In this document: piece after piece, positions 20,154 through 49,320 of the stretch | Position numbering within the stretch: position 1 is the stretch's first letter | How the letters are laid out: each line of letters begins with the position of its first letter | Source: a bacterium | GTDB taxonomy: Bacteria > Bdellovibrionota > Bacteriovoracia > Bacteriovoracales > Bacteriovoracaceae | Direction of reading: 5' to 3' | Assembly (NCBI GenBank): GCA_030425045.1 | Contig: JAUHVL010000016.1 | Coordinates: 1-64,000 of the forward strand | DNA length: 64,000 nt | Notes under the pieces: model-generated | What the model was told of the DNA's origin: nothing | The model's input: only the letters and a program-made list of their open reading frames with translations | Databases searched by the model: none | Made by a program: the position numbers and the translations under genes

Positions 20154-23100
20154 TTATCTCGAACGAGAGGCATTTATTTCTGGAGCAAGTCGTTTCGTCA
20201 CGTTTTGATATCTTCTGGTGATAATATCAAATAAACTGGCATTTTTATTGTTTACGATATCTTCATATACATAAACTTCCTCTTCAGATGAATTACTTGA
20301 AAAAGCTCGTTCTCCGTTTGCATTGCTCGCGAGGTTTTCGACAAGACCTTTTCCTTTATTTTCTTCTTCAAAAAGGTTTTTGAAGACACCAAAATTATTT
20401 TTATTAAAGGCCATTGGCTCTCTCCAGTTCGCTTTTTTGTTAATAGCGTTGACTTTCTTCATGATGGAGTTGTTCGCATCACTAACAGATTTTTCAGGAG
20501 AAATTCCAAGTTTATTATTATCAAAATATGACTCTGCTTTTTTAATAGCATCTTTTCCATATTTAGAAGCGATATATCTTTTGGCCACATCTTCATTAAA
20601 GACGATGGGAGCTTTACCTGCCTTTTTTCTCATATCATTTAATTTCGTCAGCATTTTTTGACCAAACTCTAGTCTCTTTTGTGTATTGCCTTCCGCAGTT
20701 CTGGCCCAAGAACTTAATGACATATTACCGCTGGCAACTTGATTAAAATTTCTTGCAAGGTCACTTAGACCTGCTGACTCATTTGCACTTGAGAGACTAT
20801 CAGTTGTTAACTTACTTCCTGTCATATTGAAGCTAAACGATTGTGAGTTGAGCTGTTGACATGTTCCCGTGATCTTACATTCACAGCTAGGATCTACTCC
20901 TGATGTTGAAATACAGCCCGTTGGAGTGGTATTAAAGCTCGTTTGCTCTATTCCTTCACCCTGAAGTGCTCCTGCATTGCCATCGAGAGTGACTTGATTG
21001 GTGCCATTATTAAGCCCAAAGTTTTTAAATTTTCCGGTTGAGCCTCGAGTATTTTTTGCAAGCTGATTATCTTCATCATAGCCTGTACCCGTTTGATGGT
21101 ACTTATCAAAAGTATTTAAAATATCTTGAAGTTTTCCTGCCTTTGCTCTGTGATCCTTTGCTGCTGATGTGGCGGTTCCTTTTAATCCAGCTGCGATAGC
21201 AAGTGAGGCACCAGCGGCAGCTAATGTCGTTCCAGCACTTTTACATCCCCAAGGTTGAATCATTTCCATGACGGCCACACCCATTGAGGCAGCTGCGATT
21301 CCCATGATTAAACCATAATTTTCCGATTTCTCTTCATAAGCATTGGCCATTTCTTCGTAGCCTTTGACGGCGAATTCGAAGGCCAATCTTTGATATTCTA
21401 TCGAGCCTCGATTGAGCAGTTTTGTTTTTGCTTTAAACTCTTCATCTAACGCTTTCATTTTTTGTTCGACAATTTTACTATGATCAAACTCATTAAATAA
21501 GGCGAGTGCACCACCAGCAGCAAGAACAATACCTGAAATACATGGCTTGCTACCTGAAATCATTCCGATGAGGGCCGCTGCTGCTCCACCACCGGTTGCC
21601 ACCATTGCAGCCGTCATCGATTTTTTCATATCGTTTTTAAATTTATCGATATCTTTTTTAAGGTCGTCTTCTAATGTTTCGCCGGTTTTTGCTACTTCTT
21701 CGAGGTTTTCGTAACAGGCTTTTTGATCTTCTTCAAGTGGTTGAATATAACAGTTTACAAAAAGTTCTTTAAGTTCATCATTATGTTTTTTAGTGATACA
21801 TTTATTTGACTGGCAATTATACATTTCACTGCCAGCACATTTCGTTTGTGTTGCTTCAACACAATACTCGGTACCGACTTCATACTCTATTCCTCCAAGA
21901 CAGCGTTTCTTGGCATCACCTTCAAGCCCGTCACATCGGTCTTTTAAATCGACAAAGGCATTGACTTGCATTTTACATGTTTCTGATTCGTTGGGGTCTT
22001 CTTTTGCCCGGCATTCATTGATAGCATTTTGATAGTCTTCAATATCTTTTCTGATATTTGCTCGACAAGCTGTGGGGTCAGCGGAATCACTACAGGCCGA
22101 GAACTGACTGATTACGCCGTTTAGCCTTTCGACACAGGCAAGCTGGTCTTCTTCCTTCGGTTCCAGCATACAATCAGCTTTTGCATTATTGTATTGCTCA
22201 AGGTCTGACTCTAAGGAGTCTCGACAGGCTTGATCTTCACAGGCCACATAGAGATCGACGTAGGTATTGAGGTTAGAAATACATTGTTGTTTTTGCTCCT
22301 CTGTAGGGGAGGTTTCACATTTGTTAAACTCTTCTTCATATCGGTCTTTTTGTTTGATGAGATTGTCTTTACATACAAGATCGTCACCACACTCGTTATA
22401 CTTTGTTAAAAAGAGATCGAGGTTTTTAAGGCAATTGGTTTTTGCTTCACCTTCCATTGTATTACATTTTTCATTTGCGGCTTTATACTGCTCAAGATCG
22501 GATAAGAGACGATCTTTACAGTCTTGATCATCACCACAAGCATCGTAATTAGCGACAAAGCTATTGAGTCTATTAAAACATTTTTGCTTGTCAGCACCCG
22601 ATTTAGCCTCACAAATACTGAGTTCACTTAGGTAGGTATTTTTCTCAGATTCAAGTTTATTTTCACACTCGATATCACCATTACATTTTTTAAACTTATC
22701 AACATAGCTATTAATTTGAGCAAGGCACGTCTCTCTACTGGTTTGATCTTCAAGAGCATTACAGCGTAAAATTTGAGCATTATATTCATCTTTTCTTTCA
22801 ATGAGTTTATCTTTACATTGCTGATCATCACCACAATCTTGGTACATTTTGAGGAATTCTTCTAATTGCTCAAGGCAGGCTTGCTTTTTAGTGGGATCAT
22901 TCATTTCTTCACATTTATTTAACTCGGCAAGGTATAAATCTCTTTCTAACCTAAGCGCCTCTCGACAAGGTTCATCTTTACAGGCATTGTAGCGACTAAA
23001 AAAATCTTCGAGTCTTTCGATACATTTCTCTTTTTCAGATCCCTCTTTCTCATTACATTTATTTAGCTCTGACTGATACTCATCTCGATCTCGTTTTAAT

Positions 23101-26100
23101 TGCTCAATACATGCTTGATCAGGGCAGGCATTATATGCTTCTAAGAAGGCATTTAGCTTTTCTAAACAGCTAGTTTTTTCTGATCCCGATAAAGACTCAC
23201 ATTTTTCAACCTCCAGTAAATAAAGTTCTTTATCTAATAAGAGGTTTTCTTTACAGATTTCATCATCACCACAAGCAAGATATTTCTCCATAAACGTATC
23301 AAGTTGTTCGAGGCATTGTGTCTTTGATGGTTCAGGTTGTTCATTACAACGATTTAATTCAGAGTTATATTGATCTCTTTCTTCTTTAAGTTTATTTTTA
23401 CAGGCCCTATCACTTCCACAAGCAACATAGGCTTTAATAAAAGCATCGAGTTGTTGATGACACTTAATTTTTTCTTCCCCTGACTTTTCTTCACAGGTGT
23501 TGTAGCTAATTCGATACTCATCTCGATCTCTCATGAGGGCCGTTTTACAACTATTATTATTGCCACAGGCATTGTAATTATTAACAAAGTCATCAAGGAC
23601 AGCGAGACATGTCGTTTTCTTTGCAAGGTCCGTGATTTCCTCACAACGGTTGAGTTCTGCTAGATAATCATTTCTTGCATCATTGAGATCTTTTCGACAT
23701 TTATCAGTAGTACATTCATTAAGTTTTTTAATAAATTCATTAAGCTGCTCAATACAACGACTTTTTTCTGGCTCTTGTTTGGCATTACATGAGTCTAGGC
23801 TAGCTTGATAGTTGATAACGTTATTAATGAGATCATCTTTACATGTCTTACTGTTTCCACAAGCTGCAAAATCTGCAAGAAATTTATCTAATCTTTCAAA
23901 ACATTCAACTCTTTGAGTTCCCGATTGGGCCTCACACGCAAGTACTTGTGAGCTATACATTTCTCGTTGCTCTTCGAGTTCATTTTTACAGGTTTGGTTA
24001 TTGCCACAAGCTTTGTATTGATTCGTAAAGTTATCTAGTTGAGTTAGACAACGAGTTTGCTCAAGAGGGGGCTTCGCCTTACAGTTTGTAAGCTCATTAA
24101 TATAAAGCTCTCTTTGGTCTTTGAGATCTTGAATACATTGCTGGTTGTCACCACATTTTTGATACTCAATAACATAATCACTTAAGAGTTGGTGACATTG
24201 AGACTTATCGGGCTCGTCCATCGCCTCACACTTATTAAATTCGTTTTCGTATTCTTCTTTATCAGATTCAAGTTTATCAATACACGTTTGATTTCCATTA
24301 CAAGCATCGAGCTCGGCCAAATACTTGTTAAGTTGAATCATGCAGGCATCTTTTTGCTCTTTCGTTGGTTTTGCATCACATTTAGCAACTTCAGCTTGGT
24401 AATCTTTTCGCTGCTGTTCTAAATCGTTTTTACATGTTTGATTATCCCCACAAGCTAAGTATTTTTGAAGGTAGGTATCTAAGTTTGAAATACATTGGGT
24501 GCGAAGTGGTTCGCTTTTACTTTCACAAGCAGCAACCTCTGTCTGATATAATTCGCGATCATTTTCAAGTTGATCGATACAATCTTGGTTACCATTACAA
24601 GCTTTTAATTTATTCATATAATAATCTAGCTGTTCAAAACAAAGAACTCTTTCATTTTGAGTTGGCTTGGCATTACATTTGGCAACTTGATTATTGTATT
24701 CTTCTATATCTTGGTCGAGTTTATCTCGACATGCTTGATCAGGACAGGCTTCATACTTTTCAATATATTCATTCAACTCTTGTAGACATTGCTCCTTAGC
24801 AGGACTTGGCTTCGCCTCACAAATGGCCACTTGAGCACGGTAACTATCTCTTTGCTCAATGAGTTGATCAATACAAACCTGGTCGTTCCCACAGGCTTCA
24901 TATTTTGTAAGAAATTTTTCTAATTTTTCAAAACAATCGGCTTGCTCAGCGATAGGTTTTGTTTCACAACGATTGACCTCGAAAAGGTATTCATCTCTTT
25001 CTTTTCTTAATTTTTCACTACATTGAGTATCATTACCACATTGATCTAGTTCATTAACAAAACTTTCAAGCCTCTCAAGACATTTATTTCTTTCGCTAGT
25101 CGGTTTTGTCATACATTTATCTCTTTGTTCGAGATAATCCCTACGATCTTTTTTTAGCTGTTCTTTACATGGAAGATTATTTCCACAGGCTTGATATTTT
25201 GTTACATAATTATCTAGACGACTTAAGCATTGTTCTTTTTCAGGTGAGGCGAGTGCTTCACATCTAGAAAACTCAAGTTCATATTCTTGTCGCTCATTTT
25301 CTAATGTTTCGATACATGCTTGATCACCATTACATGCTTTAAACTTCGAGACATAAAGTTCAAGCTGAGTCAGACATTGAGTTTTTGCTGGCTCTACCTT
25401 TGCGTTACAATTGGCCAGTTCTAATCGATATTCGTTTCTTCTACTTTTTAGCTCTTCTATACATTGACGATCGTTTCCACAATTAAGATAACTCGTCATA
25501 AAATCATTTAAGTCATTGAAACATTTATCTCTTTCACTTCCTGTTTTTGACTCACACATGGCAACTTCTGCATTATAAGCTGTTCGATCATTTTCTAATT
25601 GATCTTTACAGTCTTGATCATCTCCACAGGACTTATAACGAGATGTATATTGTTCAAGTAAGTCAAAACACATGACCCTTTCGTCACCTACTTTTCCTTC
25701 ACAACGAATAACCTCCTGTTCATACATAGTACGTTCTTCGTTTAGCTTATTTTTACAATCTTGATTATTACCACATTGGTCTAAGCGAAAAAGATAATCA
25801 TTTAGTCGTGATAAACATCCATCAACCTCTTCTTGTGTTGACTTTGCTTCACATGTTGAACGGGCCTCTTGGTACTCGGCGATTTGACCATCGAGCTTAT
25901 CTTTACAAGCTTGATCAGGACAACTGAGATAAGAAGTCATGATTCTACTTAATCTAGAAATACAATTACTATCACCATTACATTTTTTTTCTTCTTCAAT
26001 AAATCTTAAAACTTGCGTATCGAGATCTAGACGACATTGCTCCCTCTCTGCCGGAGTATTTAATGTACGACAGTTTTGGAAGTCATATCCATCAAGTTGA

Positions 26101-26297
26101 CTTACTTGAGAGTCGGTAAGACAGTAATTGTATTTACAGATCCACTGATGAGACGTTTTACTTTTACAACTTGTTTCTTGTTCAGCGAGAGTACTACCGG
26201 CGGTATAGCCACAATTTGAAGCATATAGATTATTGCACGCTAGCATCATAAAAATGATGAATTTTAATGCAATGTAAATGTGGCCAATATGTTTCAT
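20154..26297 (-). CDS. giant secreted cysteine-repeat protein
   Basis: The 2047-residue product begins with a hydrophobic export signal (IYIALKFIIFMMLA; either signal peptidase cleavage near NLYAS or a poor lipobox). From about residue 126 to 1450 it consists of about 27 tandem units, mostly 49 residues, with cysteines spaced C-x5-C-x17-C-x10-C-x12 to the next unit; an N-terminal half unit precedes them. A typical unit begins CGNDQ-CK-L and contains a helix rich in Glu and Lys. Residues about 1560-1600 and 1655-1700 are Gly/Ala-rich hydrophobic segments that could insert in a membrane. The last 350 residues are polar and contain a small cysteine cluster. About 108 repeat cysteines imply extensive disulfides in the periplasm or at the surface. 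I do not recognise the family. Confidence 0.85.
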   Translation of the reverse strand: MKHIGHIYIALKFIIFMMLACNNLYASNCGYTAGSTLAEQETSCKSKTSHQWICKYNYCLTDSQVSQLDGYDFQNCRTLNTPAEREQCRLDLDTQVLRFIEEEKKCNGDSNCISRLSRIMTSYLSCPDQACKDKLDGQIAEYQEARSTCEAKSTQEEVDGCLSRLNDYLFRLDQCGNNQDCKNKLNEERTMYEQEVIRCEGKVGDERVMCFDLLEQYTSRYKSCGDDQDCKDQLENDRTAYNAEVAMCESKTGSERDKCFNDLNDFMTSYLNCGNDRQCIEELKSRRNEYRLELANCNAKVEPAKTQCLTQLELYVSKFKACNGDQACIETLENERQEYELEFSRCEALASPEKEQCLSRLDNYVTKYQACGNNLPCKEQLKKDRRDYLEQRDKCMTKPTSERNKCLERLESFVNELDQCGNDTQCSEKLRKERDEYLFEVNRCETKPIAEQADCFEKLEKFLTKYEACGNDQVCIDQLIEQRDSYRAQVAICEAKPSPAKEQCLQELNEYIEKYEACPDQACRDKLDQDIEEYNNQVAKCNAKPTQNERVLCFEQLDYYMNKLKACNGNQDCIDQLENDRELYQTEVAACESKSEPLRTQCISNLDTYLQKYLACGDNQTCKNDLEQQRKDYQAEVAKCDAKPTKEQKDACMIQLNKYLAELDACNGNQTCIDKLESDKEEYENEFNKCEAMDEPDKSQCHQLLSDYVIEYQKCGDNQQCIQDLKDQRELYINELTNCKAKPPLEQTRCLTQLDNFTNQYKACGNNQTCKNELEEQREMYSSQVLACEAQSGTQRVECFERLDKFLADFAACGNSKTCKDDLINNVINYQASLDSCNAKQEPEKSRCIEQLNEFIKKLNECTTDKCRKDLNDARNDYLAELNRCEEITDLAKKTTCLAVLDDFVNNYNACGNNNSCKTALMRDRDEYRISYNTCEEKSGEEKIKCHQQLDAFIKAYVACGSDRACKNKLKEERDQYNSELNRCNEQPEPSKTQCLEQLDTFMEKYLACGDDEICKENLLLDKELYLLEVEKCESLSGSEKTSCLEKLNAFLEAYNACPDQACIEQLKRDRDEYQSELNKCNEKEGSEKEKCIERLEDFFSRYNACKDEPCREALRLERDLYLAELNKCEEMNDPTKKQACLEQLEEFLKMYQDCGDDQQCKDKLIERKDEYNAQILRCNALEDQTSRETCLAQINSYVDKFKKCNGDIECENKLESEKNTYLSELSICEAKSGADKQKCFNRLNSFVANYDACGDDQDCKDRLLSDLEQYKAANEKCNTMEGEAKTNCLKNLDLFLTKYNECGDDLVCKDNLIKQKDRYEEEFNKCETSPTEEQKQQCISNLNTYVDLYVACEDQACRDSLESDLEQYNNAKADCMLEPKEEDQLACVERLNGVISQFSACSDSADPTACRANIRKDIEDYQNAINECRAKEDPNESETCKMQVNAFVDLKDRCDGLEGDAKKRCLGGIEYEVGTEYCVEATQTKCAGSEMYNCQSNKCITKKHNDELKELFVNCYIQPLEEDQKACYENLEEVAKTGETLEDDLKKDIDKFKNDMKKSMTAAMVATGGGAAAALIGMISGSKPCISGIVLAAGGALALFNEFDHSKIVEQKMKALDEEFKAKTKLLNRGSIEYQRLAFEFAVKGYEEMANAYEEKSENYGLIMGIAAASMGVAVMEMIQPWGCKSAGTTLAAAGASLAIAAGLKGTATSAAKDHRAKAGKLQDILNTFDKYHQTGTGYDEDNQLAKNTRGSTGKFKNFGLNNGTNQVTLDGNAGALQGEGIEQTSFNTTPTGCISTSGVDPSCECKITGTCQQLNSQSFSFNMTGSKLTTDSLSSANESAGLSDLARNFNQVASGNMSLSSWARTAEGNTQKRLEFGQKMLTKLNDMRKKAGKAPIVFNEDVAKRYIASKYGKDAIKKAESYFDNNKLGISPEKSVSDANNSIMKKVNAINKKANWREPMAFNKNNFGVFKNLFEEENKGKGLVENLASNANGERAFSSNSSEEEVYVYEDIVNNKNASLFDIITRRYQNVTKRLAPEINASRSR
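21845..25922 (-). repeat. about 27 tandem protein-level repeats of 147 bp
   Basis: The span encodes successive 49-residue cysteine units of the giant protein. The repetition is clear in protein but strongly diverged in DNA, with unit lengths of 48 to 53 codons. Units starting CPDQAC (shortened by one residue) recur about every ten units, which hints at an older block duplication. Confidence 0.8.
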
Positions 26298-26464: not shown

Positions 26465-26491
26465 TTATCGGTATTTTAGAAAATTAACTTA
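26465..26491 (-). promoter_or_regulatory. sigma-28-like promoter of the cysteine-repeat gene
   Basis: The minus strand reads TAAG, 15 nt, ACCGATAA. It resembles the motif at 5835 and 49321. The leader to the ATG at 26297 would be about 160 nt and AT-rich, so a second, closer promoter is possible. Confidence 0.35.
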
Positions 26492-26508
26492 GTGGAAAGG
26501 TCGACTAA

Positions 26509-26537
26509 TTGTGGTCAATAGAAAGGCCGTATATAAT
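26509..26537 (+). promoter_or_regulatory. sigma-70 promoter of the small lipoprotein gene
   Basis: TTGTGG, a 17-nt spacer and a perfect TATAAT (26532-26537). Because it covers the in-frame TTG at 26509 and ATG at 26536, it argues that translation starts at the ATG at 26557. Confidence 0.6.
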
Positions 26538-26556
26538 GGAAATTAATAGGAAAAGC

Positions 26557-27117
26557 ATGAAATATTTAATAATAATCCTCTTAACATCTCTCATTTCAAG
26601 TTGTGTTGCTGAACAAGAAAGTTATGATAGCTCTGGAGATGATGGAACATACGTAGGGACTTCTGTTCCTTACAACGACGAAGACTTCGAAAGCAGTCTC
26701 TTTACCAGAACATGTCCAAATGTGGATATCACTTTAAGAATCCAAAATGGTGTCTACACGATTAATTTAACTGATAGCTATCGCGATGGCTTTGTACCCC
26801 ATGCCAATGTCGTCACCAATCACGGTGATACTGGAAGTACTTTTGATAATAATAAGTTTGTTGCAAAGGATACGTGGGCGATAGAAACAACTGATACACA
26901 ACTTTTCGATTTGAGAACCTTAGGCGTTTGTGGAGCAACTGCAAGTCCCGCCTCTAACGGAAGTTTATCAAACCTATCATTTGTCATTAGTGAAGACTTT
27001 ATTGTCGGTCAATATGGTCTTGGAAAAGCAAGAGGCTCACTGGTTTATGGGGTAGACTGTACTGATGGCGAGTTTGTTGAAGTTTGTGCTTATTATATGG
27101 ATCTAACAAAAATATAA
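26557..27117 (+). CDS. small lipoprotein of unknown function
   Basis: From the ATG at 26557 the product has 186 residues. It starts with a typical lipoprotein signal (MKYLIIILLTSLISSC, lipobox ISSC) preceded by an AGGAAAAG ribosome site. The mature part begins with an acidic, Ser/Gly-rich tether (SYDSSGDDG) and then a beta-rich domain holding four further cysteines (TCPNVD, GVCGAT, GVDCTD, EVCAYY), perhaps two disulfides. No family is recognised. Longer in-frame starts at 26509 and 26536 would fall inside the promoter. The stop codon touches the stop of pyrF on the opposite strand with no base between. Confidence 0.7.
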   Translation: MKYLIIILLTSLISSCVAEQESYDSSGDDGTYVGTSVPYNDEDFESSLFTRTCPNVDITLRIQNGVYTINLTDSYRDGFVPHANVVTNHGDTGSTFDNNKFVAKDTWAIETTDTQLFDLRTLGVCGATASPASNGSLSNLSFVISEDFIVGQYGLGKARGSLVYGVDCTDGEFVEVCAYYMDLTKI

Positions 27118-27824: not shown

Positions 27825-30800
27825 CTATTTTAACTCTTGTAAGGCAATTGGTTGTAAAGATTCATCATTTCCATTTTCACCACTACCAACAATAGCCTCC
27901 ATCACGGCCTTAATATTTTCTGGTCTGGTAAAACAAGGAACGCCATGGCCAATGGCCGTGTTTCGAATAAATTCACCATCGGATTTTGATTTTCCGGTAT
28001 TTTTGGGAGTGTTAAAAACCATACGGATATGATTATCTTTTACTGAATCTATAATATTCTGATGTTCTCCATCTTCAATTTTTCCTACAAGCTCACAGGG
28101 AATACCTTGCTTTTTAATATAATCTCTTGTGCCAGAAGTTGCGATAAAGCTGTAACCAAGATTATGAAGACCTTTTAAGTAAGGGAGGAGAACTTCTTTA
28201 GAGCGATCGGCAAGAGAAAGCAGTATTTTTCCTTTCTTTCCTAAAAGAGGGTAGTTACCAAGGTAACTTTTAAGGACACCTTTATCTTTGTCCTTGTCTA
28301 ATCCCATGGTCTCACCAGTAGAGCGCATTTTGGGGCCTAGGATGATATTGTCTTGAAGAAAGCGATCAAAAGGGAAAGTTGACTGTTTGACGGCAAAGTA
28401 ATCTGATGTTTCTTTGTCCCAGTTTTCGATTTTCTCTCCAAGCATCGCATCTGTTGCAATTTGAGGGAGAGAAAGAGAGTTTGCTTTTGAAAGAAAGGGA
28501 AGAGTTCTCGACCCTCTAGGGTTCGCCTCGATACAATAAATACTATCTCCTTTCACAGCATATTGAAAATTTATAGGACCGATGATTTCTAGCTTTTCTG
28601 CTAATTGACGTGAGATTTCTTTCATTCTTTTATAAAGGGCGCTGGTTAAAACAACAGGAGGAGAGATCATTCCAGAGTCACCACTGTGGACACCGGCATG
28701 CTCAATATGCTCACATACTGTAAAAACACAATTGCCAAATTGGTCTCGAATTAAATCAACATCATATTCAAGAGCGTTTTCTAAATAGTTTTCAACTTGA
28801 AAGAGGGTACTGCTTCTTTTGAGCTGCTCTTTATGAGTATCGGGGAGTTCGTTAATATCGTCATGAGAATAGAAGATATACATCGATTCACCACCGATGA
28901 CATAACTTGGTCTAATGATTACAGGCATACCAATTTCGATCATGGCATTTAATAAAGCTTTGTGACCTCTAATCTCTTTTGACTTTGTATGGGAGAGTTC
29001 GACTTCTTTTGTGATCTCTGCAAATTGCTTTCTATCTTCAGTGAGATCTAGACTTTTTAAACTTGGTCCTAAAAAGTTAAATGTTTTGAAGTCTTTTCTA
29101 AAGCTATTTTCGATATGCTCTCTAATTCCAATTCCCGTTTGTCCTGAGAATGCTGTGATAACACCAGCAGGGTTTTCATTTAGAAAAATATCAAAGAGGT
29201 CTTCTGAAAAAAGAGGTGAGAGGTATAAGCGGTTACTACTATCATAATCTGTTGAAACCGTTTCAGGATTTGAGTTAATCATAATGGCCTTATGACCTTT
29301 TTCCTGAAGTCTTTGGCATGCTTTTACACAAGAATAATCAAACTCGATACCCTGACCAATACGGTTGGGACCTGATCCTAAAATGGCATAGGCATCGCCT
29401 AGTGAGCTTGCTTCATTTTCTACTTGATAAGTACTGTAAAAGTAGGGCGTTTCTGCTTGAAATTCACCTGAACATGTATCGACAGCTTTGTAGATAGGAA
29501 AAATTTTATGATCAAAGCGGTAGCTTAAAATTTCACTTTGTCCCTTGTTTGAGAGATAGGCGAGATATTTATCAGAAAAGCCAAGCTCTTTTGCCTTGAT
29601 GAAATTACTTTCTTCAAATAATTGTGTTTTACAAACCGTTTCAAGTTCAACAATCTCGCGCATCTGCTCGATAAACCACGGAGTAATTTGAGAGAGACTG
29701 AAAATTTCTTTTGTACTAAAGCCTTTCCTAACGGCTTCAAGAACAGTAAGTAGGCAATGCTCTCTTGGTGTAGAAAGTCTTTTTCTTAAATAGTCTTCGT
29801 CCAGAACAATAGGAGCGTCTTTTAATTGACTCATCATAGGTATCTCAAGACCGTTTTCCAGTGATCTTAAAGCTTTTAAGAAAGCTTCATTAAAAGAGCT
29901 ACCGAGGGCCAACACTTCTCCCACGGCACGCATTTGTGGGCCTAAAATATTGGAAGAAGTTGGAAATTTATTAAAAGGAAAGACGGGTATTTTTAACGCT
30001 ACATAATCAAGTGTCGGCTCAAAAGCAACTGGTGAAGCTTTTGTAATATCATTAAGAATTTCTCTTAATGAGTAGCCAACAGCTAATAAAGCTGAAATCT
30101 TCGCAATTGGGTATCCTGTTGCCTTTGAAGCGAGAGCAGATGAGCGGCTCACTCTTGGGTTCATTTCAATAACGACGATATCGTCTTCATCGATAGGGTT
30201 GATTGCAAATTGAACGTTTGCCCCACCGGCGACAACCTTCATATGTTTAGCAATGGTTAGAGACATAGTTCTGAGCTGTTGATAACAACGATCTGAAATG
30301 GTTTGGGCAGGAGCAACTGTGATCGAGTCTCCTGTATGGACTCCACAAGGGTCGATATTTTCAATAGAACAAATCACCACACCATTTCTTTCTTGGTCAA
30401 CCATCACTTCTAGCTCAATCTCTTTCCACCCAAGAAGTGATTTTTCCATCGTGATAGGAAATTCAATATCTGATTGAAAAACCTCTTTGAGTTCTTCTTC
30501 GTTTTTGACAATGGCAGCACCTTGTCCACCAAGAGCAAAGTCTCTTCTAATAATGAGAGGAAAACCAACACTAGTTCTCGCAAGAATTAGGGCATCTTCA
30601 GGACTGTCAGAGGTAAACCTTTTACCTGTTTTGTATCCTAACGTATCAAGCTCTTCTGCGAAGAGTTTTCGGTCTTCTGTTTTTTTGATGGTATCGACTC
30701 TTGCACCAAGTAGGGCGACATTATTTTCACTTAGCCATTTTTCTTCTTCGAGCTCTACACAAAGATTGAGTGCCGTTTGCCCACCCATTGTTGATAAGAC

Positions 30801-32243
30801 AGCATCAACTTTTTCTTTTTTGATAATCTTTTTAATCGTTTCTTTCGTGATCGGTTCGATATAGGTTCGATAGGCCATATCAGGATCAGTCATGATAGTA
30901 GCAGGGTTGGAATTAAGTAAAACAACATCAATTCCAATTTCTTTAAGTGACTTAAGGGCCTGGGTTCCAGAGTAATCGAATTCACTGGCTTGGCCAATCT
31001 TAATAGGGCCAGAGCCAATGAGAAGGATCTTTTGATAAAGGATATCTTTTATGACTGGTTCTTTTAAATTTACAACGGGAGTGAAACTTGATTCATCAAA
31101 TTTCTCAACGTCTCCACTTAGATAGTTTCTTATTTCCTCAAAAAAGACTTTCGCATCTTTTGGACCTGGATTTGCTTCAGGGTGAAACTGTACTGATCTT
31201 AAAAAAGAATCCTCTGTTGCCATGCCTTCTACCGAGTCATCAAATAACGATGTGTAGGTAATAAGAAGGTTTTTATTTAAAGGATTATCGGATTTAATTT
31301 TTTCTAAAGATGCTTTATCAGAACAATACCCATGATTTTGAGATGTAATGAGAATATTTCCCGTCGCATGTTCTAAACAAGGATGGTTAACACCACGCTG
31401 ACCAAAAGGAAGTCTGGCAATTTCAGCTCCAAGAGCAAGAGTTAATAACTGATGACCTAAGCAAATTCCTCTTAGGGGAATTCCAAGAGAAAGCATCTTT
31501 TTTACTTGCTCAATTTGCTCAGTAAAGGCCCTCGGATCACCGGGACCATTAGATAAAAAGATAAGCCTTGGGTTAATGGCTTTTATTTCTTCAGCTGTCA
31601 CATTGTAGGGAAAAGTCACAAGAGGTAGCCCAAAGTCTTTTAAATTTTCGACAATAGCATTTTTACAGCCGTAGTTAACAAGAGCGATGGGATTATCTCC
31701 TGGGATAATCACTTCTTTATTTTCTTGGCTTACTTTTTCTAAGTCATTTACGATTAAGCGAGCGTTTTTAAATTCTTCTGCCGAGGGAGAATCTGAACTT
31801 GCTGTGATAACACTTTTATGTGAAGCACTTGTTGATGTGAGGAACTTCACAAGTGATCTGGTATCAAGCCCAGAAAAAAGGGGTGTATCGATATTATTTA
31901 GAAATTCATTCTCTGAGAAGTTTCTCGCAATGAGAGAGGTCGCATGAACTCCGCCACTTTGATTAACCCTTTCATCTGCTTCGTAGTTTCCAACGTGTGA
32001 AGTGGTGAAGATAATATGCTGCCCGAGAAATGAAGGGTCCGTCATGGTTTCTTGATAACCAGACATGCCGGTTGTAAAAGCAGCTTCTCCCCAAATTCCA
32101 TTTTTTAGTTTCGGATCATCTGAATTCAGATTGATATATCCTTCAAAAGAGGTTCCGTTATCAAAATGTAAATAGGCTTTTGACCTGCGAAGGTTAGAGA
32201 GAAAGATTTGGTTACTAGAAGGTGAAAGTTCTTGGTCCGTCAT
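27825..32243 (-). CDS. carAB: carbamoyl-phosphate synthase, fused CarA-CarB
   Basis: The 1472-residue protein joins both subunits that bacteria usually encode separately. Residues 1-385 are CarA: the small-subunit N-domain (FEGYINLN, GEAAFTTGMSGYQE) and a class I glutaminase with nucleophile GICLGHQ (about 263) and FHPEANPGP (about 353). A short linker leads to CarB from about residue 399 (ILLIGSGPIKIGQASEFDYSG), with two ATP-grasp halves and an allosteric MGS-like domain from about 1338. The glutaminase makes ammonia that is channelled to carbamoyl phosphate for pyrimidines and arginine. The reading frame is continuous, with no stop or frameshift at the join. It overlaps pyrB by 29 bases. 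Confidence 0.96.
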   Translation of the reverse strand: MTDQELSPSSNQIFLSNLRRSKAYLHFDNGTSFEGYINLNSDDPKLKNGIWGEAAFTTGMSGYQETMTDPSFLGQHIIFTTSHVGNYEADERVNQSGGVHATSLIARNFSENEFLNNIDTPLFSGLDTRSLVKFLTSTSASHKSVITASSDSPSAEEFKNARLIVNDLEKVSQENKEVIIPGDNPIALVNYGCKNAIVENLKDFGLPLVTFPYNVTAEEIKAINPRLIFLSNGPGDPRAFTEQIEQVKKMLSLGIPLRGICLGHQLLTLALGAEIARLPFGQRGVNHPCLEHATGNILITSQNHGYCSDKASLEKIKSDNPLNKNLLITYTSLFDDSVEGMATEDSFLRSVQFHPEANPGPKDAKVFFEEIRNYLSGDVEKFDESSFTPVVNLKEPVIKDILYQKILLIGSGPIKIGQASEFDYSGTQALKSLKEIGIDVVLLNSNPATIMTDPDMAYRTYIEPITKETIKKIIKKEKVDAVLSTMGGQTALNLCVELEEEKWLSENNVALLGARVDTIKKTEDRKLFAEELDTLGYKTGKRFTSDSPEDALILARTSVGFPLIIRRDFALGGQGAAIVKNEEELKEVFQSDIEFPITMEKSLLGWKEIELEVMVDQERNGVVICSIENIDPCGVHTGDSITVAPAQTISDRCYQQLRTMSLTIAKHMKVVAGGANVQFAINPIDEDDIVVIEMNPRVSRSSALASKATGYPIAKISALLAVGYSLREILNDITKASPVAFEPTLDYVALKIPVFPFNKFPTSSNILGPQMRAVGEVLALGSSFNEAFLKALRSLENGLEIPMMSQLKDAPIVLDEDYLRKRLSTPREHCLLTVLEAVRKGFSTKEIFSLSQITPWFIEQMREIVELETVCKTQLFEESNFIKAKELGFSDKYLAYLSNKGQSEILSYRFDHKIFPIYKAVDTCSGEFQAETPYFYSTYQVENEASSLGDAYAILGSGPNRIGQGIEFDYSCVKACQRLQEKGHKAIMINSNPETVSTDYDSSNRLYLSPLFSEDLFDIFLNENPAGVITAFSGQTGIGIREHIENSFRKDFKTFNFLGPSLKSLDLTEDRKQFAEITKEVELSHTKSKEIRGHKALLNAMIEIGMPVIIRPSYVIGGESMYIFYSHDDINELPDTHKEQLKRSSTLFQVENYLENALEYDVDLIRDQFGNCVFTVCEHIEHAGVHSGDSGMISPPVVLTSALYKRMKEISRQLAEKLEIIGPINFQYAVKGDSIYCIEANPRGSRTLPFLSKANSLSLPQIATDAMLGEKIENWDKETSDYFAVKQSTFPFDRFLQDNIILGPKMRSTGETMGLDKDKDKGVLKSYLGNYPLLGKKGKILLSLADRSKEVLLPYLKGLHNLGYSFIATSGTRDYIKKQGIPCELVGKIEDGEHQNIIDSVKDNHIRMVFNTPKNTGKSKSDGEFIRNTAIGHGVPCFTRPENIKAVMEAIVGSGENGNDESLQPIALQELK

Positions 32244-36676: not shown

Positions 36677-36697
36677 TTTTTCACAGAAAAGTTGAAA

Positions 36698-38068
36698 ATG
36701 AATAAAAACCCACGTCATCAATTATTAGAATTGATGGAAAACCTGAATAAGTCTGAAATAAATTGTGCTCAATGTACTGGGGTTTGTTGTACTGACAAGG
36801 CAAACTCAATGAAAATTGATGAAGCAGAAACGGAGTCAATTTATCAATACTTAATCAGTCATAATATCTGGGATAAAGATTTGGAGAACTCTCTTCGTGA
36901 GACAATAGATAAGTACCGATTAGATCAAGAAATCTCCACGGGGAAGAATTCTGTTTTTAGAAAAACTTATACCTGTCCCTTTTTTAAATTTAAAAGTCTA
37001 GGATGTGCACTCCCTGCAGAAGTTAAACCCTATGGCTGTTTGGCCTTTAACCCCAGGACTTCTGGGATTAAAAATGGTGAAAACTGTGCTAGCGATGCTG
37101 AATTGTTAAAGTCAGTAGAACAACATGATTTAAAGTATACAATTCCAGAAGCACTACTTCGACGACATCGAAAAACTCAACTTGAAAAGCATAACCTCAT
37201 TATATCAAACTCATCAAATCCTTATTTTAATCTTGCTCTAGAAGATTATTTGTTAAGAAAAATCAAACATAATAAACCAACGTTACTTTTGTGGCGAAAT
37301 CGACCTAGTATTGTTTGGGGTAAATTTCAAAACCCTTGGCTTGAATGCCATATTCAAAAAGCGAGAGAGAAAGGGCTCATTTTCGTTAGAAGACAAAGTG
37401 GAGGCGGTACGGTTTATCATGACTTGGGAAATTTAAATTTTTCCATTTTATCTGATAATGGTTATTGCAATAGAGTCAGTAATTTAGATTTTATTATTGA
37501 TGCTTTCAAAGAAACAAAATTGCAACTTAAGAGAAATGAAAGAAATGATCTCGTTATTGAGCATCATAACAAAACTTATAAAGTCTCTGGAAGTGCATTC
37601 AAGCAAATTAAAAATAAGGGGCTTCATCATGGGACGTTATTAATTGACACTCAATTAGATAATATCTCAGGTCTTTTAAACCCTAAAAAGCAAGGGATTG
37701 AATCTAAATCGATTCGTTCAGTTCCTTCACCTTGTATTAATTTAAAAGAAATTGATCCAGATCTTAATTATGATAAGGCCATAGAGGTGATCTCTAACCA
37801 TTGGAATGTTCGCCATGGTTCTAAGACTCTTGTTGTAGATGAGAAAAATTACTCATTTGAGAATACTGAGAAATATCTCTCTTGGGATTGGATTTGGGCA
37901 GAAACACCTAAGTTTGAGTTTCAAGGTGATAAAGTTTGGGTGAAGGTCATGAAAGGACATGTGATCGAGTACAAAAGTAGTGATGGACTTGAAATTGAAA
38001 ATTTAATCAAGAGAAAAATAGGAATTGTTAATAACGATAATTTTGATGAACTAAATTTTCTTTTTTAG
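36698..38068 (+). CDS. YkgJ-type cysteine-cluster domain fused to lipoate-protein ligase
   Basis: From the ATG at 36698 the product has 456 residues. The first 150 carry a YkgJ-type cluster signature: C-x2-C-x3-CC in CAQCTGVCC, then Cys in YTCPFF, LGCALP and PYGCLAF, of the kind thought to hold zinc or iron-sulfur. From about residue 165 it is a lipoate-protein ligase A: RRQSGGGTVYHDLGNLNFS (about 230), YKVSGSAFK with the substrate lysine, and HHGTLLID. LplA attaches lipoate to dehydrogenase E2 and GcvH proteins. I do not know this fusion as a standard architecture. Its 3' end overlaps the methyltransferase gene by 4 bases. Confidence 0.85.
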   Translation: MNKNPRHQLLELMENLNKSEINCAQCTGVCCTDKANSMKIDEAETESIYQYLISHNIWDKDLENSLRETIDKYRLDQEISTGKNSVFRKTYTCPFFKFKSLGCALPAEVKPYGCLAFNPRTSGIKNGENCASDAELLKSVEQHDLKYTIPEALLRRHRKTQLEKHNLIISNSSNPYFNLALEDYLLRKIKHNKPTLLLWRNRPSIVWGKFQNPWLECHIQKAREKGLIFVRRQSGGGTVYHDLGNLNFSILSDNGYCNRVSNLDFIIDAFKETKLQLKRNERNDLVIEHHNKTYKVSGSAFKQIKNKGLHHGTLLIDTQLDNISGLLNPKKQGIESKSIRSVPSPCINLKEIDPDLNYDKAIEVISNHWNVRHGSKTLVVDEKNYSFENTEKYLSWDWIWAETPKFEFQGDKVWVKVMKGHVIEYKSSDGLEIENLIKRKIGIVNNDNFDELNFLF

Positions 38069-39357: not shown

Positions 39358-42300
39358 ATGAGAAAAGTTAAGTTCATCATCAAGGTTTTTGTAATCTATT
39401 TTTCTAGCTTTATGCTGGCCTATGGTGGTCCACTTTCTCGCATCAAGAGAATGCCTGCTCAGCAGGCCGAAAAATCAGAAATTTTAGCCTCTCTTTTTAA
39501 CCATAAAAAAGCGCTTATCGGTCATGTCGATACAAGTCATTGTCTGGAGAGTAGTCCTGCTGATGAAAATGCTGTTGAAGCGGTGATCGACAGGTCTTTT
39601 TTTGAACTGATCAATACTTGCCGAGAACAAGATCGTGAAGAGGCAGATCAACCAGAAGCGAACGCGTCTTCGTTACAGACATGTCACCCCAATGTTGAGA
39701 CTGGAATTAAGCAGGCCATCTTGCCTGTCATGGCCGAAAAAAGTGAAGAAGAAAAAGATTATATTTTAACGAGAGATGGCAGTGAGTATATAGGCCAATT
39801 GAGAAATTTTACTCAGCTGAAAAGTATGGTTGAAACGTATGTTTTTAATACTGGTTATGCTGAAAACGATAGAAGAGAAGTTCTCTATTCGTATATCGAA
39901 AATGTTGTTATTCCAACGAGAGAGATTCTTCTTATTTCGATGCCGGATGACCTTGGTGAGCTCTCTTCATTGTACGCTAGTTTATTTCCTCAGTTCCCCA
40001 AAAATTTATTTTCAGATTATGAAATATTAGTCGAATTGGAGTTAGGTCCTAACTCACAAAATGTTCCTTTTTTTGTTAAATTAAAAGAAGTCGACAATAC
40101 CAAAGCAACAATCGTATTTAATAATTTAAAGAGGCTCTCTGTTGATATCGCAAGCCTGATGGAGAGCGCTACTTATGATAATTATTTTAGAGCGCTTCGT
40201 CGCTCAACTCTTCTCATGATGTTTTCTCAAATACAGTTTTACGACGCTATTTCGGGAAAAGAGTCAAAAATTGAAATTCCTCAATCCTGTCAAAATCCAC
40301 TCAATGGAAATATGCCTTCTCGTTTAGTTCATGGTTATGATGAAAATAGAGAGTTTGGTGATACGCTCGTTACGAATATTATACAAGATTATAAATTGGC
40401 CTATACCGATGAAAGCCATCACCTCGAAGAGTTTTATAATAGTGTTCAAAATGTCGATATCGATCCCATATACGATGCCTTTGGACAGATAACTCCTTTT
40501 GAAGAGTTAAGAAATTCTGAAATTGCACTAGGAAATCTTTCAACGGGGCTAGGTGATGATGTCAAAATTGATGATATTGCTCATTATGAAAAAGTCTTAT
40601 CTATGCTCAATCAAAAAGTACAAAACGAATATGATAAGGGAGATCTTTATCGTTATGGTTATAATCGTGGACAAGAAATTGAGAGAGATTATATTGGTTT
40701 AGAGGTTTGGAACCAAATTACTTCCGTTCCTGAAGAGGGAGAAGTTTATACTTTTGAAAAAAATGGAAGTGAAGTTAGTTTTACTCCTTCATGGGATAAC
40801 CTTTCAACCTATTTAGCGAATTATCTCAAAAGAAAAAAAACAGGTAATATTGAAGAGGCCATTAGTAGCAATATTCGAAGTACGCTACAAAATAATAGAG
40901 TACGAATAGATTTCCCCGCTCTTTATGGATCACCTGTCTGGAGACAGTGGGCCTTATCAAAAGTTGCCTATGCATTTGATGATGTGGCCAGCTCTGAAGT
41001 ATCTCAAGGTGTTCGTTCTGTTTTTGAGACATTTTGTCACTTTCATCAAAACTCGTTGAGTAATACAACTAATATTTGTCTTAAATCACTCGATACAAAT
41101 GAAGAAGACAATTTGTTTGCCCATATGGCAGAAAGGTTAGCTCCCTTTAGAAATTCTAATAATTATGTTCCGCTAGATCGTCTTGAAGAACTGGGAATGG
41201 TACAGCTATGGCCATTTTTTCATGCTCTTTGGGAAACTGAATACTTTGCTGAAAATAGAACTCTTAATGAGTATGATTTTTTAATGGCCCAACTTTATGC
41301 TGGTAACCCATGGGCAAGACTACGTTTAAGTTATCTTGTTGCCCAGGAAGAGTTAGCAGAGCAGCCTAATCATTATAATTTTGTTTATGAGTCGAGACTT
41401 TTTGGACTCTCTCAAGTTCCCAATAGAGAAGGTCAGTGTTTTCAAGCGGCCATGATTGAAGAGAATAATAAATTTAGAAGTATTGGCAGAATTACCGGTC
41501 TAGATTCTAAATTAAATTTAAATTACGGAGAGTCACTTTTAAAAAGAAGAGAAATTGAGTCTCTTTGGGAGGGAATTCGTGATGAAGTTGATGAGAGAGG
41601 AAAACATCTCTTTACAACGAAAAGAAATAATCAAACTCCTTACTACCAAGTGATTGGAAGAATTAATAATAAAACGATAGTGGATCAAGATGCTCTAGAC
41701 TCCTTAAATAGCGCCCTTGGAAATTTAAATTTAGATAGCACTGCTAGAGCTGAAATACGGGAGATCTTTAATTCGGAAAGAGGTCTTCGCAGTGATTTTT
41801 ATATGGGGCTCTATCGGCTTCGTGGAAATATGAATGAACAATTAGAGTATTACACAAACTATCTCCAAGAAAATGATATTGTTCTTGATGAAGATATTAA
41901 ATTTGAGTTTGTGAGAGTCGATAACCTCATAAAAAATGCAGTTTACAAAAGTCTTCTTAGGGAAGCGGCTGAAAAAAGAAGGGCCATGATGATTACTCAG
42001 CTCGATGAAGTCTGTAAGTTCTCACCCGATAATCATGATGAAATGAAAACATTCTTTTATATGACGGCGAAAGCTCAAAATGAGCTGAATGAGCTTACAG
42101 GTTTACCGGCCGTACCAGAAGAAGTTATGGATCGTATTGAAGCATGGACTCGAGGAGAAAAGCTATCTCTTGCCGGAGGGTTATTTGCTGGTGTGGTTGG
42201 TGTTGGTGCTTTTATCGTGGCCTCTGCTTGTACGGCATCAATTATTTGTGGAATTGCAGGAGCGGCAGCGCTATCAGCAGTATTCATTCAAGGCGGACTT

Positions 42301-43824
42301 GCGGTTTATGAATATCGAAAATTTACAGCGGCGAAAGGTCATACGGCGAGAATTTTAAAAATGGAAGAGCTAGGACTGACTGACCGAAATAATTATAAAA
42401 AGATGAAACACGGCTGGTTTATGATGGCCTTTGAAATTGTATCGATCTTTCCTATGCTTGGGCCGTCAGCACGTGGCCTAGAATTAACAGGTCGAATGAT
42501 TAAAGGTTTACCAGTTCTCTATAAGTCTGGTCTCAAAAGTTATAAAGAAGTGTTAACCGCCTCTCATGAGATGGCCGATATCCGCTATGCCCTTTCCGTA
42601 TTAAAAAGAGGACTTTCTGAGGAAGATTTAGCAAGAATCAGCAGACTTGAAAAAGAACTTGCTGATGAAATTGAAGAAGTGATGACTCAAAAGCAAGCTG
42701 GACTGATTAATCGTACCACGATGATGCAAAGAGTGGCAGCTCTTCACGATACTTATATGACGAGAATCAAAAGTATTGGAAATAATTTCTTGCGGCAGTT
42801 AGACGATGAAGTTGTACGATTAAGCCAAAGAGAAATCGATGAAATGGTTGTTCATCAATTAAAAACATATCATCGTAACCTCGATAATTTCAAAAGAGAG
42901 TTTGTGGGCGTTAGTGGGAAGAAACTCGAGCGTGCCGTATCAAGAATGGAAAATGAAATTGAAAATGCTTCTGGAGTGAGAAAATGGTTTATGCGTATGC
43001 GCTCGGAACATCTTTATAAATACCGTGATACGATCACAAAAGTTCAACAAAACTTAGATCAGGCCATTTCACAAAATAAAAGTGTTGAAGTTTTCATGAG
43101 AGAGAACTTAGATGATCTCAATTATATTTATACTAAGAGACCTTTTGAAGCGAAGACATTACCTCATATGTTTTTTGGTCAAGGGGCCACCAACTCTATG
43201 GAGTTTGGTATTGGTCGAGCTGAGCAAGCTGTCGGAGGGTTGGCCGATTCTCTCTTAACTAAAAAGATTTTCCAAGCAAGAGACAGAGTTAGTTTTGAGG
43301 CCATTACAAGACAGGCAAAGACAACGATTGATCTTCCTGAAACGGCTGGGTCCATTAAAACATATAAAGTGTTTAGACAATTTAATATGAAAGTGATGCA
43401 AAGAGTGGAGGAGCTAAATCGCCCTGGTGCTATTGGCATTCAAATGCCTGAGAGAATGGCAATTTTAACTCATTATCAATCCTTGCAAGAAGAAGCGACC
43501 AGAGAAGCCTGGAGTGTTTTAAGAAGGCATCAAAAAGCGGATGGGACTTATAGAATCGGTCGTACCAGTTATGATCTCAATGAAGAAACTGTGCGAAGAG
43601 TACTCTTTAACCCACGTAGCATCGACGATGAAGTTTTAGCTGAGAGATTATGGGCATCAATGGATGTTGATAAAGTTCTAGGGTTAGAAAATCTCGATGA
43701 GCTCGCACATGTGGCCGCTAGAAGTTTATCAAATTACGGAAATATCAATGAGTATATGGATTTCTTATCAGCACTAAAAGTTCTCGTGATGAAAAGAAAG
43801 CCTGAGGTTGTAGACTTTATTTAA
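39358..43824 (+). CDS. giant secreted protein of unknown function
   Basis: The 1488-residue product has a signal peptide (core FIIKVFVIYFSSFMLA, cleavage near YGG). Most of it is helical and charged with scattered cysteines in the first third (SHCLE, NTCRE, QTCHP). Around residues 935-985 is a long Gly/Ala hydrophobic stretch (LAGGLFAGVVGVGAFIVA followed by CTASIICGIAGAAALSAVF), a helical-hairpin look, and a second, weaker hydrophobic segment lies near 1020-1045. The C-terminal third is rich in Arg/Glu and coiled-coil-like. No enzyme motif is recognised. It faces the four-gene envelope operon and overlaps its last gene by 8 bases. The layout (signal, repeat/helical body, central hydrophobic hairpin) recalls the cysteine-repeat protein. 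Confidence 0.8.
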   Translation: MRKVKFIIKVFVIYFSSFMLAYGGPLSRIKRMPAQQAEKSEILASLFNHKKALIGHVDTSHCLESSPADENAVEAVIDRSFFELINTCREQDREEADQPEANASSLQTCHPNVETGIKQAILPVMAEKSEEEKDYILTRDGSEYIGQLRNFTQLKSMVETYVFNTGYAENDRREVLYSYIENVVIPTREILLISMPDDLGELSSLYASLFPQFPKNLFSDYEILVELELGPNSQNVPFFVKLKEVDNTKATIVFNNLKRLSVDIASLMESATYDNYFRALRRSTLLMMFSQIQFYDAISGKESKIEIPQSCQNPLNGNMPSRLVHGYDENREFGDTLVTNIIQDYKLAYTDESHHLEEFYNSVQNVDIDPIYDAFGQITPFEELRNSEIALGNLSTGLGDDVKIDDIAHYEKVLSMLNQKVQNEYDKGDLYRYGYNRGQEIERDYIGLEVWNQITSVPEEGEVYTFEKNGSEVSFTPSWDNLSTYLANYLKRKKTGNIEEAISSNIRSTLQNNRVRIDFPALYGSPVWRQWALSKVAYAFDDVASSEVSQGVRSVFETFCHFHQNSLSNTTNICLKSLDTNEEDNLFAHMAERLAPFRNSNNYVPLDRLEELGMVQLWPFFHALWETEYFAENRTLNEYDFLMAQLYAGNPWARLRLSYLVAQEELAEQPNHYNFVYESRLFGLSQVPNREGQCFQAAMIEENNKFRSIGRITGLDSKLNLNYGESLLKRREIESLWEGIRDEVDERGKHLFTTKRNNQTPYYQVIGRINNKTIVDQDALDSLNSALGNLNLDSTARAEIREIFNSERGLRSDFYMGLYRLRGNMNEQLEYYTNYLQENDIVLDEDIKFEFVRVDNLIKNAVYKSLLREAAEKRRAMMITQLDEVCKFSPDNHDEMKTFFYMTAKAQNELNELTGLPAVPEEVMDRIEAWTRGEKLSLAGGLFAGVVGVGAFIVASACTASIICGIAGAAALSAVFIQGGLAVYEYRKFTAAKGHTARILKMEELGLTDRNNYKKMKHGWFMMAFEIVSIFPMLGPSARGLELTGRMIKGLPVLYKSGLKSYKEVLTASHEMADIRYALSVLKRGLSEEDLARISRLEKELADEIEEVMTQKQAGLINRTTMMQRVAALHDTYMTRIKSIGNNFLRQLDDEVVRLSQREIDEMVVHQLKTYHRNLDNFKREFVGVSGKKLERAVSRMENEIENASGVRKWFMRMRSEHLYKYRDTITKVQQNLDQAISQNKSVEVFMRENLDDLNYIYTKRPFEAKTLPHMFFGQGATNSMEFGIGRAEQAVGGLADSLLTKKIFQARDRVSFEAITRQAKTTIDLPETAGSIKTYKVFRQFNMKVMQRVEELNRPGAIGIQMPERMAILTHYQSLQEEATREAWSVLRRHQKADGTYRIGRTSYDLNEETVRRVLFNPRSIDDEVLAERLWASMDVDKVLGLENLDELAHVAARSLSNYGNINEYMDFLSALKVLVMKRKPEVVDFI

Positions 43825-44545
43825 GATCATCTTTTTTAAAGATCGTAAGAATATTAAAAACTGCCAGAGCTGCAATGATATGTTTTATGGAATGCCCACT
43901 GATCAATTCCAATACTTGAAATACCTGATGATCAAAAATTTCAAATATTTTTGCTAAGACGTAGAGTCCTATGGTTCCTAGAAAGACTTTATTTGGTAGC
44001 CGATTGGCCTTCAAAAGAAAGGAGGCAATTAAGCAATACACGATACCGCCATATTGAAGCAGAATATAAGGTCTAAGACTTAAATGGCCCCAGTGGTAAC
44101 CCAAAACGCTATAAAGTCCAAGCGGAATTAAAAGCGTGAGAATAACGTGTCCTAGTTTTAAAGAGATGCGATCGGCAATGATAATAGAAATAATGGCAGA
44201 AAAGCCAAAGGTCATCGTTAGGCGATCTGGAACAAGAGTGTCAGGAGTTGGTGCCCAATGAAAATAGGTTGAGCTAAAGGCCGTCAGCAGTGAAGAAAGT
44301 GAGATAAAAAAACCAAACCAAAAGAGCTCGTGTTTAGATTGATAAAGATTTTTAAAGCCGTAAATTCCGACAAAGAAAAAGGGAAGATTACTGAGAACAT
44401 CTAAGGCATTGGGAATTGAAATAAGTGTTCTTTTGTCAGCAAAATTGAAAAAACTTTTAGCATCTTCAAGGGGGATAAAGTTCCAAAGTGCGACTGATAG
44501 AACGATAACAAGGACGAGAAGAAAAAGAGGGGAGTTTTTATTCAT
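43817..44545 (-). CDS. ceramidase-like membrane hydrolase (CREST family)
   Basis: The 242-residue protein has about seven membrane helices. The pattern fits the CREST superfamily, which includes alkaline ceramidases: SNLPFFFVG in an early helix, SSTYFHW with a histidine (about 93-97), VPDRLTM with the aspartate (about 106), and GHSIKHIIAALA with the last two histidines (about 218-223). These residues bind zinc in ceramidases that cleave the amide of sphingolipids. The true substrate here is unknown. It is the last gene of the operon, 19 bases behind the 323-residue secreted protein gene. Confidence 0.8.
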   Translation of the reverse strand: MNKNSPLFLLVLVIVLSVALWNFIPLEDAKSFFNFADKRTLISIPNALDVLSNLPFFFVGIYGFKNLYQSKHELFWFGFFISLSSLLTAFSSTYFHWAPTPDTLVPDRLTMTFGFSAIISIIIADRISLKLGHVILTLLIPLGLYSVLGYHWGHLSLRPYILLQYGGIVYCLIASFLLKANRLPNKVFLGTIGLYVLAKIFEIFDHQVFQVLELISGHSIKHIIAALAVFNILTIFKKDDLK

Positions 44546-44564
44546 CTCCCCACTATAGCGTGAA

Positions 44565-46747: not shown

Positions 46748-46749
46748 TA

Positions 46750-49311: not shown

Positions 49312-49320
49312 ATCAATCAA

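Follow-up and report, generated by a model that had tools for sequence, protein, structure and literature searches.

A 27-unit four-cysteine repeat protein of Bacteriovoracaceae: constant length, exchangeable arrays and a candidate envelope strut

The window analysed here, a stretch of 64,000 nucleotides from a member of the Bacteriovoracaceae, encodes on its minus strand a very long cysteine-rich protein (hereafter, the rod protein), whose gene is divergent from a small lipoprotein gene. The following features were recognized at this locus.

20154..26297, minus strand: whole open reading frame, exported Cys-repeat protein of 2047 aa with 131 Cys (ORF translation)
26217..26297, minus strand: signal peptide, aa 1-27, cleavage site approximate (sequence, hydrophobic run)
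25923..26213, minus strand: N-terminal 6-Cys module, aa 29-125, C..W-x-C-x4-C..C..C, with a transitional half unit
21933..25922, minus strand: array of 27 units of 49 (48-53) aa with four Cys each, aa 126-1455 (helical hairpins by AlphaFold2)
21678..21932, minus strand: second 6-Cys module, closing the array, aa 1456-1540
21096..21734, minus strand: four long helices in two hairpins, aa 1522-1580, 1587-1625, 1633-1680 and 1688-1734
20859..20915, minus strand: C-x9-C-x-C-x5-C motif, Cys1795, 1805, 1807 and 1813 (invariant in 27 aligned homologs)
20157..20249, minus strand: conserved C-terminal family motif S-[IL]-[FW]-x-[IVL]-[IL]-[ST]-x-R-Y
26465..26492, minus strand: FliA-like promoter candidate CTAAG-N16-CCGATA upstream of the rod gene (match to the Bdellovibrio consensus)
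26536..27117, plus strand: lipoprotein gene, about 200 aa, lipobox ..SSC, divergent from the rod gene

The signal peptide is evident in the sequence, in agreement with the export signal proposed in the initial annotation. Since Cys21 lies within it, 130 cysteines are left in the mature protein. Lipoprotein anchoring of the rod protein itself was rejected, as the residues preceding the cysteine do not fit a lipobox and the homologs lack it. The N-terminal 6-Cys module is common to the rod protein and its short paralogs.

The array consists of 27 consecutive units from Cys126 to Cys1455 with the spacing C-x4/5-C-x17-C-x10/11-C-x13, the last unit having x8 in the first gap; thus the 49-residue units with fixed cysteine spacing described previously are real, except that the final gap is x13 rather than x12. 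The strict spacing pattern has 26 matches in the protein, while 2,000 composition-preserving shuffles yielded one each at the most. The mean pairwise identity of the units is 35% at the amino acid level and 56% at the DNA level, and Tandem Repeats Finder reported a single short 21-base pair within the gene. Recent expansion of the repeat is ruled out by this DNA identity together with the lack of a tandem-repeat call across the whole array, so the array is old and is not a product of recent slippage. Selection acting on the cysteines and on a small number of helix residues maintains it. Cysteine makes up 6% of the rod protein, and the array is very acidic, with a net charge of about -94.

The repeat had been described as belonging to no known family, and our profile and single-row searches bear this out. 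Searched as a whole, the protein exceeds the cut-off of no Pfam or NCBIfam family and matches no sequence in PDB; queries with profiles of the array and the C-terminus, or with individual rows from them, yielded only sub-threshold matches in the same three databases; and the full protein and a five-unit segment found no relatives in genome-contig, viral and plasmid scans. The most recurrent weak match is the GDNF/GAS1 domain (PF02351), which is hit by 14 of 61 array segments at E <= 1 (best E 0.0035), all below the curated cut-off, with the whole protein unmatched. This domain resembles the array in being cysteine-rich, all-helical and extracellular, but most array rows do not match it, and it occurs in animal receptors rather than in long tandem rods. 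The Cys-rich repeats of GLG1/ESL-1 (PF00839), found in the secretory pathway, are likewise tandem with about four cysteines per repeat, but GLG1 is eukaryotic; this family is absent from the protein's Pfam list at E <= 10 and from the top 25 families over the 61 array segments. As for TPR, HEAT and other alpha-solenoids, neither a Pfam repeat family nor a PDB fold match was obtained.

The initial annotation named a confident repeated helical fold, on modelling of adjacent units, as one thing that would support it. An AlphaFold2 model of five units, based on an alignment of 61 own and homologous array segments, has a mean pLDDT of 91 and contains ten helices, two per unit. In the predicted unit, Cys2 and Cys3 lie near opposite ends of helix A, while helix B has Cys4 close to its start and Cys1 of the next unit just past its end. 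This placement is as expected for disulfides, and we infer that all cysteines are paired, with staples C3-C4 within a unit and C2-C1' to the next unit. The number of mature cysteines is even in every complete homolog: 27-unit proteins have 130, 26-unit proteins 126 and G111 138. For G059 this includes Cys22, right at the beginning of the mature polypeptide (129 without it). Such even counts, changing in steps of exactly four, agree with complete pairing. A fold search with the array model found no solved or viral structure at significance, the best E-values being 0.59 (PDB, TM about 0.2) and 0.68.

Downstream of the array, the two Gly/Ala-rich hydrophobic stretches reported earlier correspond to two long hairpins: the Gly/Ala-rich composition stands for the tips, and the region is modelled as four helices with a cysteine at each hairpin tip. 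Most of the hairpin model has pLDDT 70-88 and is followed by a poorly predicted tail with the C..CxC..C motif. Helix hydrophobicity of both hairpins rises towards the tips, which carry Cys1586 and Cys1685, conserved in aligned homologs, and are moderately hydrophobic, with Kyte-Doolittle maxima of 1.4-1.8 in the window's protein. A fold search with this model returned nothing significant (all E 0.1 or more). The polar tail is also real, yet the conserved C..CxC..C and C-terminal motifs mean that it is not merely disordered.

The C-terminal part, previously read as the membrane-active end of a rod, is the conserved family element, and the cysteine array is one of several interchangeable inserts. 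We defined a scaffold family by the C-terminal region of about 500 aa, comprising the tip cysteines, C..CxC..C and the terminal [FW]xx[IL][ST]xRY, all of which are present in the rod protein. The C-terminal profile matches 125 of 129 Bacteriovoracaceae genomes, mostly several times per genome, whereas among 369 genomes of the phylum only four outside this group had marginal matches (about 1e-4). Named relatives in genome contigs belong to Bacteriovoracaceae or to unplaced Bdellovibrionales; the short form of G007 is from a contig of an uncultured Halobacteriovorax. As anticipated, the protein thus has its relatives mainly among close kin, the C-terminal family being essentially absent from the rest of the phylum. 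The scaffold family is present in nearly all Bacteriovoracaceae genomes and carries no annotation.

Both ends of the scaffold proteins are conserved, and the middle is either absent (forms of about 600-800 aa) or variable: the 49-aa four-cysteine array, about nineteen 70-aa 6-Cys units (G110 and G111), a decapeptide array (PF25296, 9e-194) with 6-Cys modules (G027), or Pro-rich and coiled-coil segments (G006). A long cysteine array is present in 12-16 of the 129 genomes. In the maximum-likelihood tree the short-form clade is separated from a clade uniting the 49-aa forms, the 70-aa forms and the array-less G010, and each of the two array types occupies one side of a branch. The nearly cysteine-free decapeptide array of G027 replaces most of the cysteine array at the same position in the tree. 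The first unit has gaps in common with the 6-Cys module, and the profiles are weakly similar, which suggests that the 49-aa unit was derived from such a module; direct descent from the 70-aa module may be considered on the basis of one hhalign comparison (62%, E 7.5e-5), which supports it weakly.

Several observations concern other members of the family. All short forms examined (L071:6732-9339 in the window's own genome; L021, L022, L023, L024, L076, L078 and L079) adjoin a gene for a VanY-type peptidase without an obvious signal peptide, and the pair constitutes a conserved cell-wall locus; on the other flank there is often a divergent gene for a small exported protein, possibly papain/NlpC-like. 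The Pro-rich or coiled-coil members L018:2794-8187 (1797 aa) and L075:67-3519 (1150 aa) instead have MurA-like and release-factor-like neighbours, a different neighbourhood that points to a possible third subfamily. An apparent occurrence of the array in genus g10 (G148; L110, contig G148:C140) is likely binning contamination, since this contig has the match scores and neighbours of G089 despite the different genus.

Tandem-repeat proteins commonly change their copy number. Here, the unit count is 26 or 27 in all eight complete 49-aa homologs, which come from four genera. Measured between the first mature cysteine and the first tip cysteine, the span is 1500-1577 aa (CV 1.7%) in five genera and two unit types, G111 included; in G027 it is shorter, 1260 aa. 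Within a genus the positional identity of units is 0.575 versus 0.36, whereas between genera it is low, with offset 0 about equal to other offsets, and single units from different genera are scarcely more alike than random pairs. The significance of the array lies in this conjunction: 26-27 copies are kept over four genera despite near-background similarity of the units, and a sister lineage with another unit has nearly the same span.

Two candidate partners co-occur with the array. In the set of 129 genomes the lipoprotein and the 49-aa array occur in precisely the same 12 records (the twelfth being G148), and the other 117 lack the lipoprotein. The second is an exported FecR-domain protein of about 680 aa with a strand-rich C-terminal half and an aromatic final residue; its FecR match is weak and below Pfam's cut-off (E 0.0013). 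Judging from the signal peptide, the strand-like sequence and the C-terminal aromatic residue, it looks like an outer-membrane beta-barrel. Strong homologs (E<1e-30) occur in exactly the 15 genomes, from six genera, that have a long protein of the array clade: eleven with the 49-aa array, and G033, G110, G111 and G027 with the 70-aa or decapeptide type, the long protein of G033 being cut by a contig end and its array type assumed from locus and genus. These six genera share ancestry, so inheritance from a common ancestor may account for part of the co-occurrence. The usual neighbours of the barrel gene are a LolA-like gene (PF17131), the array gene and, in many cases, a gene for an MMPL protein; the window's genome differs in that its MMPL, LolA and FecR-barrel genes lie together on a separate contig (L102), away from the array gene. 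Joining its FecR and barrel parts is a linker that in the 49-aa lineages (L061, L063, L064, L065, L066 and L102) contains two or three [IVFL]FG[DES]-like motifs, of which none was found in the G111 barrel (L067); this motif could possibly serve for docking.

Comparable gene sets are known elsewhere. In Thalassolituus, TOL_3187 and its neighbour encode MMPL, LolA-like and predicted porin components together (PMC6304351), but there MMPL and LolA form one protein, while here the barrel bears a FecR-like domain and co-occurs with a cysteine rod. A LolA-like/Omp85 export cluster has been reported in Borrelia.

The attack-phase promoters of Bdellovibrio have the consensus TTAAG-N16-CCGATA (PMC3627812). 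The site upstream of the rod gene agrees with it in 10 of 11 positions (reached by 1% of shuffles in the window's genome, G000), as do those in G007, G088 and G089 (0.25-1.75% of shuffles); four other genomes have sites with 9 of 11 positions, while in G059 and G081 the match does not rise above background. A site matching at 10 of 11 positions also belongs to the window's flagellin gene, and no FliA site was found upstream of the lipoprotein gene. The candidate promoter hints at expression of the rod gene in the attack phase.

The constant span, the exchangeable material, the even number of cysteines and the outer-membrane partner are explained most simply by a disulfide-locked helical strut of fixed length, with a C-terminal membrane anchor and a dedicated barrel partner, a reading to which we assign a probability of roughly 45%. 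The protein would be exported by Sec into an oxidising compartment, where the predicted two-helix hairpins, each with four cysteines at the helix ends and presumably all disulfide-paired, would turn 27 units into a helical rod resistant to proteases and stretching. The conserved C-terminal four-helix bundle, with its hydrophobic Cys-capped tips, may anchor this rod in a membrane, so that the strut would fix the distance between the bundle and its outer-membrane partners, namely the FecR-barrel and, in the 49-aa lineages, also the lipoprotein. The MMPL and LolA-like genes near the barrel gene suggest that the strut may serve or carry an envelope transport or assembly line, possibly switched on in the FliA-driven attack phase. 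It may either bridge the periplasm or project outward. Several facts weigh against the strut: the anchor helices are just marginally hydrophobic, 27 hairpins, if the rod is stretched, could be longer than the periplasm is wide, the FliA-like site is missing in G059 and G081, the G027 span is shorter, the co-occurrence is limited to related genera with the trio apart from the array gene in the window's genome, the barrel assignment depends on general sequence characters, and the FecR match is sub-threshold.

Of the roles considered in the initial annotation (surface fibre, spacer and prey contact), constant length and the barrel partner favour the spacer, and the FliA-like promoter leaves a link to the attack phase possible. 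The main rival is a surface fibre or stalk, exported and held outside by the barrel and the lipoprotein, whose N-terminal module meets prey in the attack phase. The number of repeats in known surface fibres is often variable, unlike that of the present array. The lineage is predatory, the promoter candidate resembles those of Bdellovibrio attack-phase genes, disulfide armour would suit the exterior and the partners belong to the outer membrane; moreover, Bdellovibrio displays fibre proteins for prey recognition, the chimeric, trimeric, fibre-like MAT (mosaic adhesive trimer) proteins being proposed for prey handling (PMC10769870). MAT fibres share with the rod protein their length and predatory host, but they are trimeric chimeras and not Cys-locked arrays of helical hairpins. 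Given that there is no adhesive tip domain, the N-terminus being one small Cys module also present in short paralogs, and that the long array is confined to a minority of Bacteriovoracaceae genomes, we regard the fibre as rather doubtful.

A membrane-inserting effector, in which the rod brings a pore- or translocon-like helical bundle into the prey membrane, is less likely still and seems to us improbable. The hairpin bundle with hydrophobic Gly/Ala tips, one of 27 members weakly matching the type III translocon protein SseD (6e-5), weak fold matches to the helical pore-forming toxins MakA and SmhB (E about 0.5-1.4) and the cell-wall peptidase genes beside short paralogs are consistent with it, but every fold match is insignificant, no secretion apparatus is encoded near the rod gene, and several scaffold paralogs in each of nearly all genomes would be expected of a housekeeping envelope component. 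Finally, the high cysteine content and acidity could suit a metal or redox buffer or a sulfur store, yet this is very improbable, as cysteines that are even in number, invariantly spaced and always set at helix ends point towards structural disulfides, length constancy would be left unexplained, and the sister lineage has another unit, with most of the G027 array being nearly cysteine-free.

A broader form of the strut reading would be a hitherto undescribed machine in the envelope of Bacteriovoracaceae that works during the attack phase: a trans-envelope, disulfide-welded ruler whose units (49-aa 4-Cys, 70-aa 6-Cys, or a decapeptide array plus Cys modules) are exchanged between conserved ends under selection for length, with the FecR/beta-barrel protein and the MMPL/LolA line as dedicated partner. 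That all these parts hold together is, in our estimate, unlikely. The rod and its partner set provide a natural and genetically accessible test of whether a protein sets length, and the scaffold family is a candidate for the biology separating Bacteriovoracaceae predators from Bdellovibrio.

Other genes of the window also deserve mention. A 1472-aa ORF at 27825-32243 (minus strand) looks like a fusion of the carbamoyl-phosphate synthase subunits CarA and CarB and is located next to aspartate transcarbamoylase and PyrF-like genes. At 36692-38068 (plus strand), an N-terminal cysteine-cluster domain is apparently fused to a lipoate-protein ligase-like domain. A row of large ORFs for exported proteins or lipoproteins of no evident family (1488, 323, 404 and 856 aa) occupies positions 39358-49320, before the flagellin gene.
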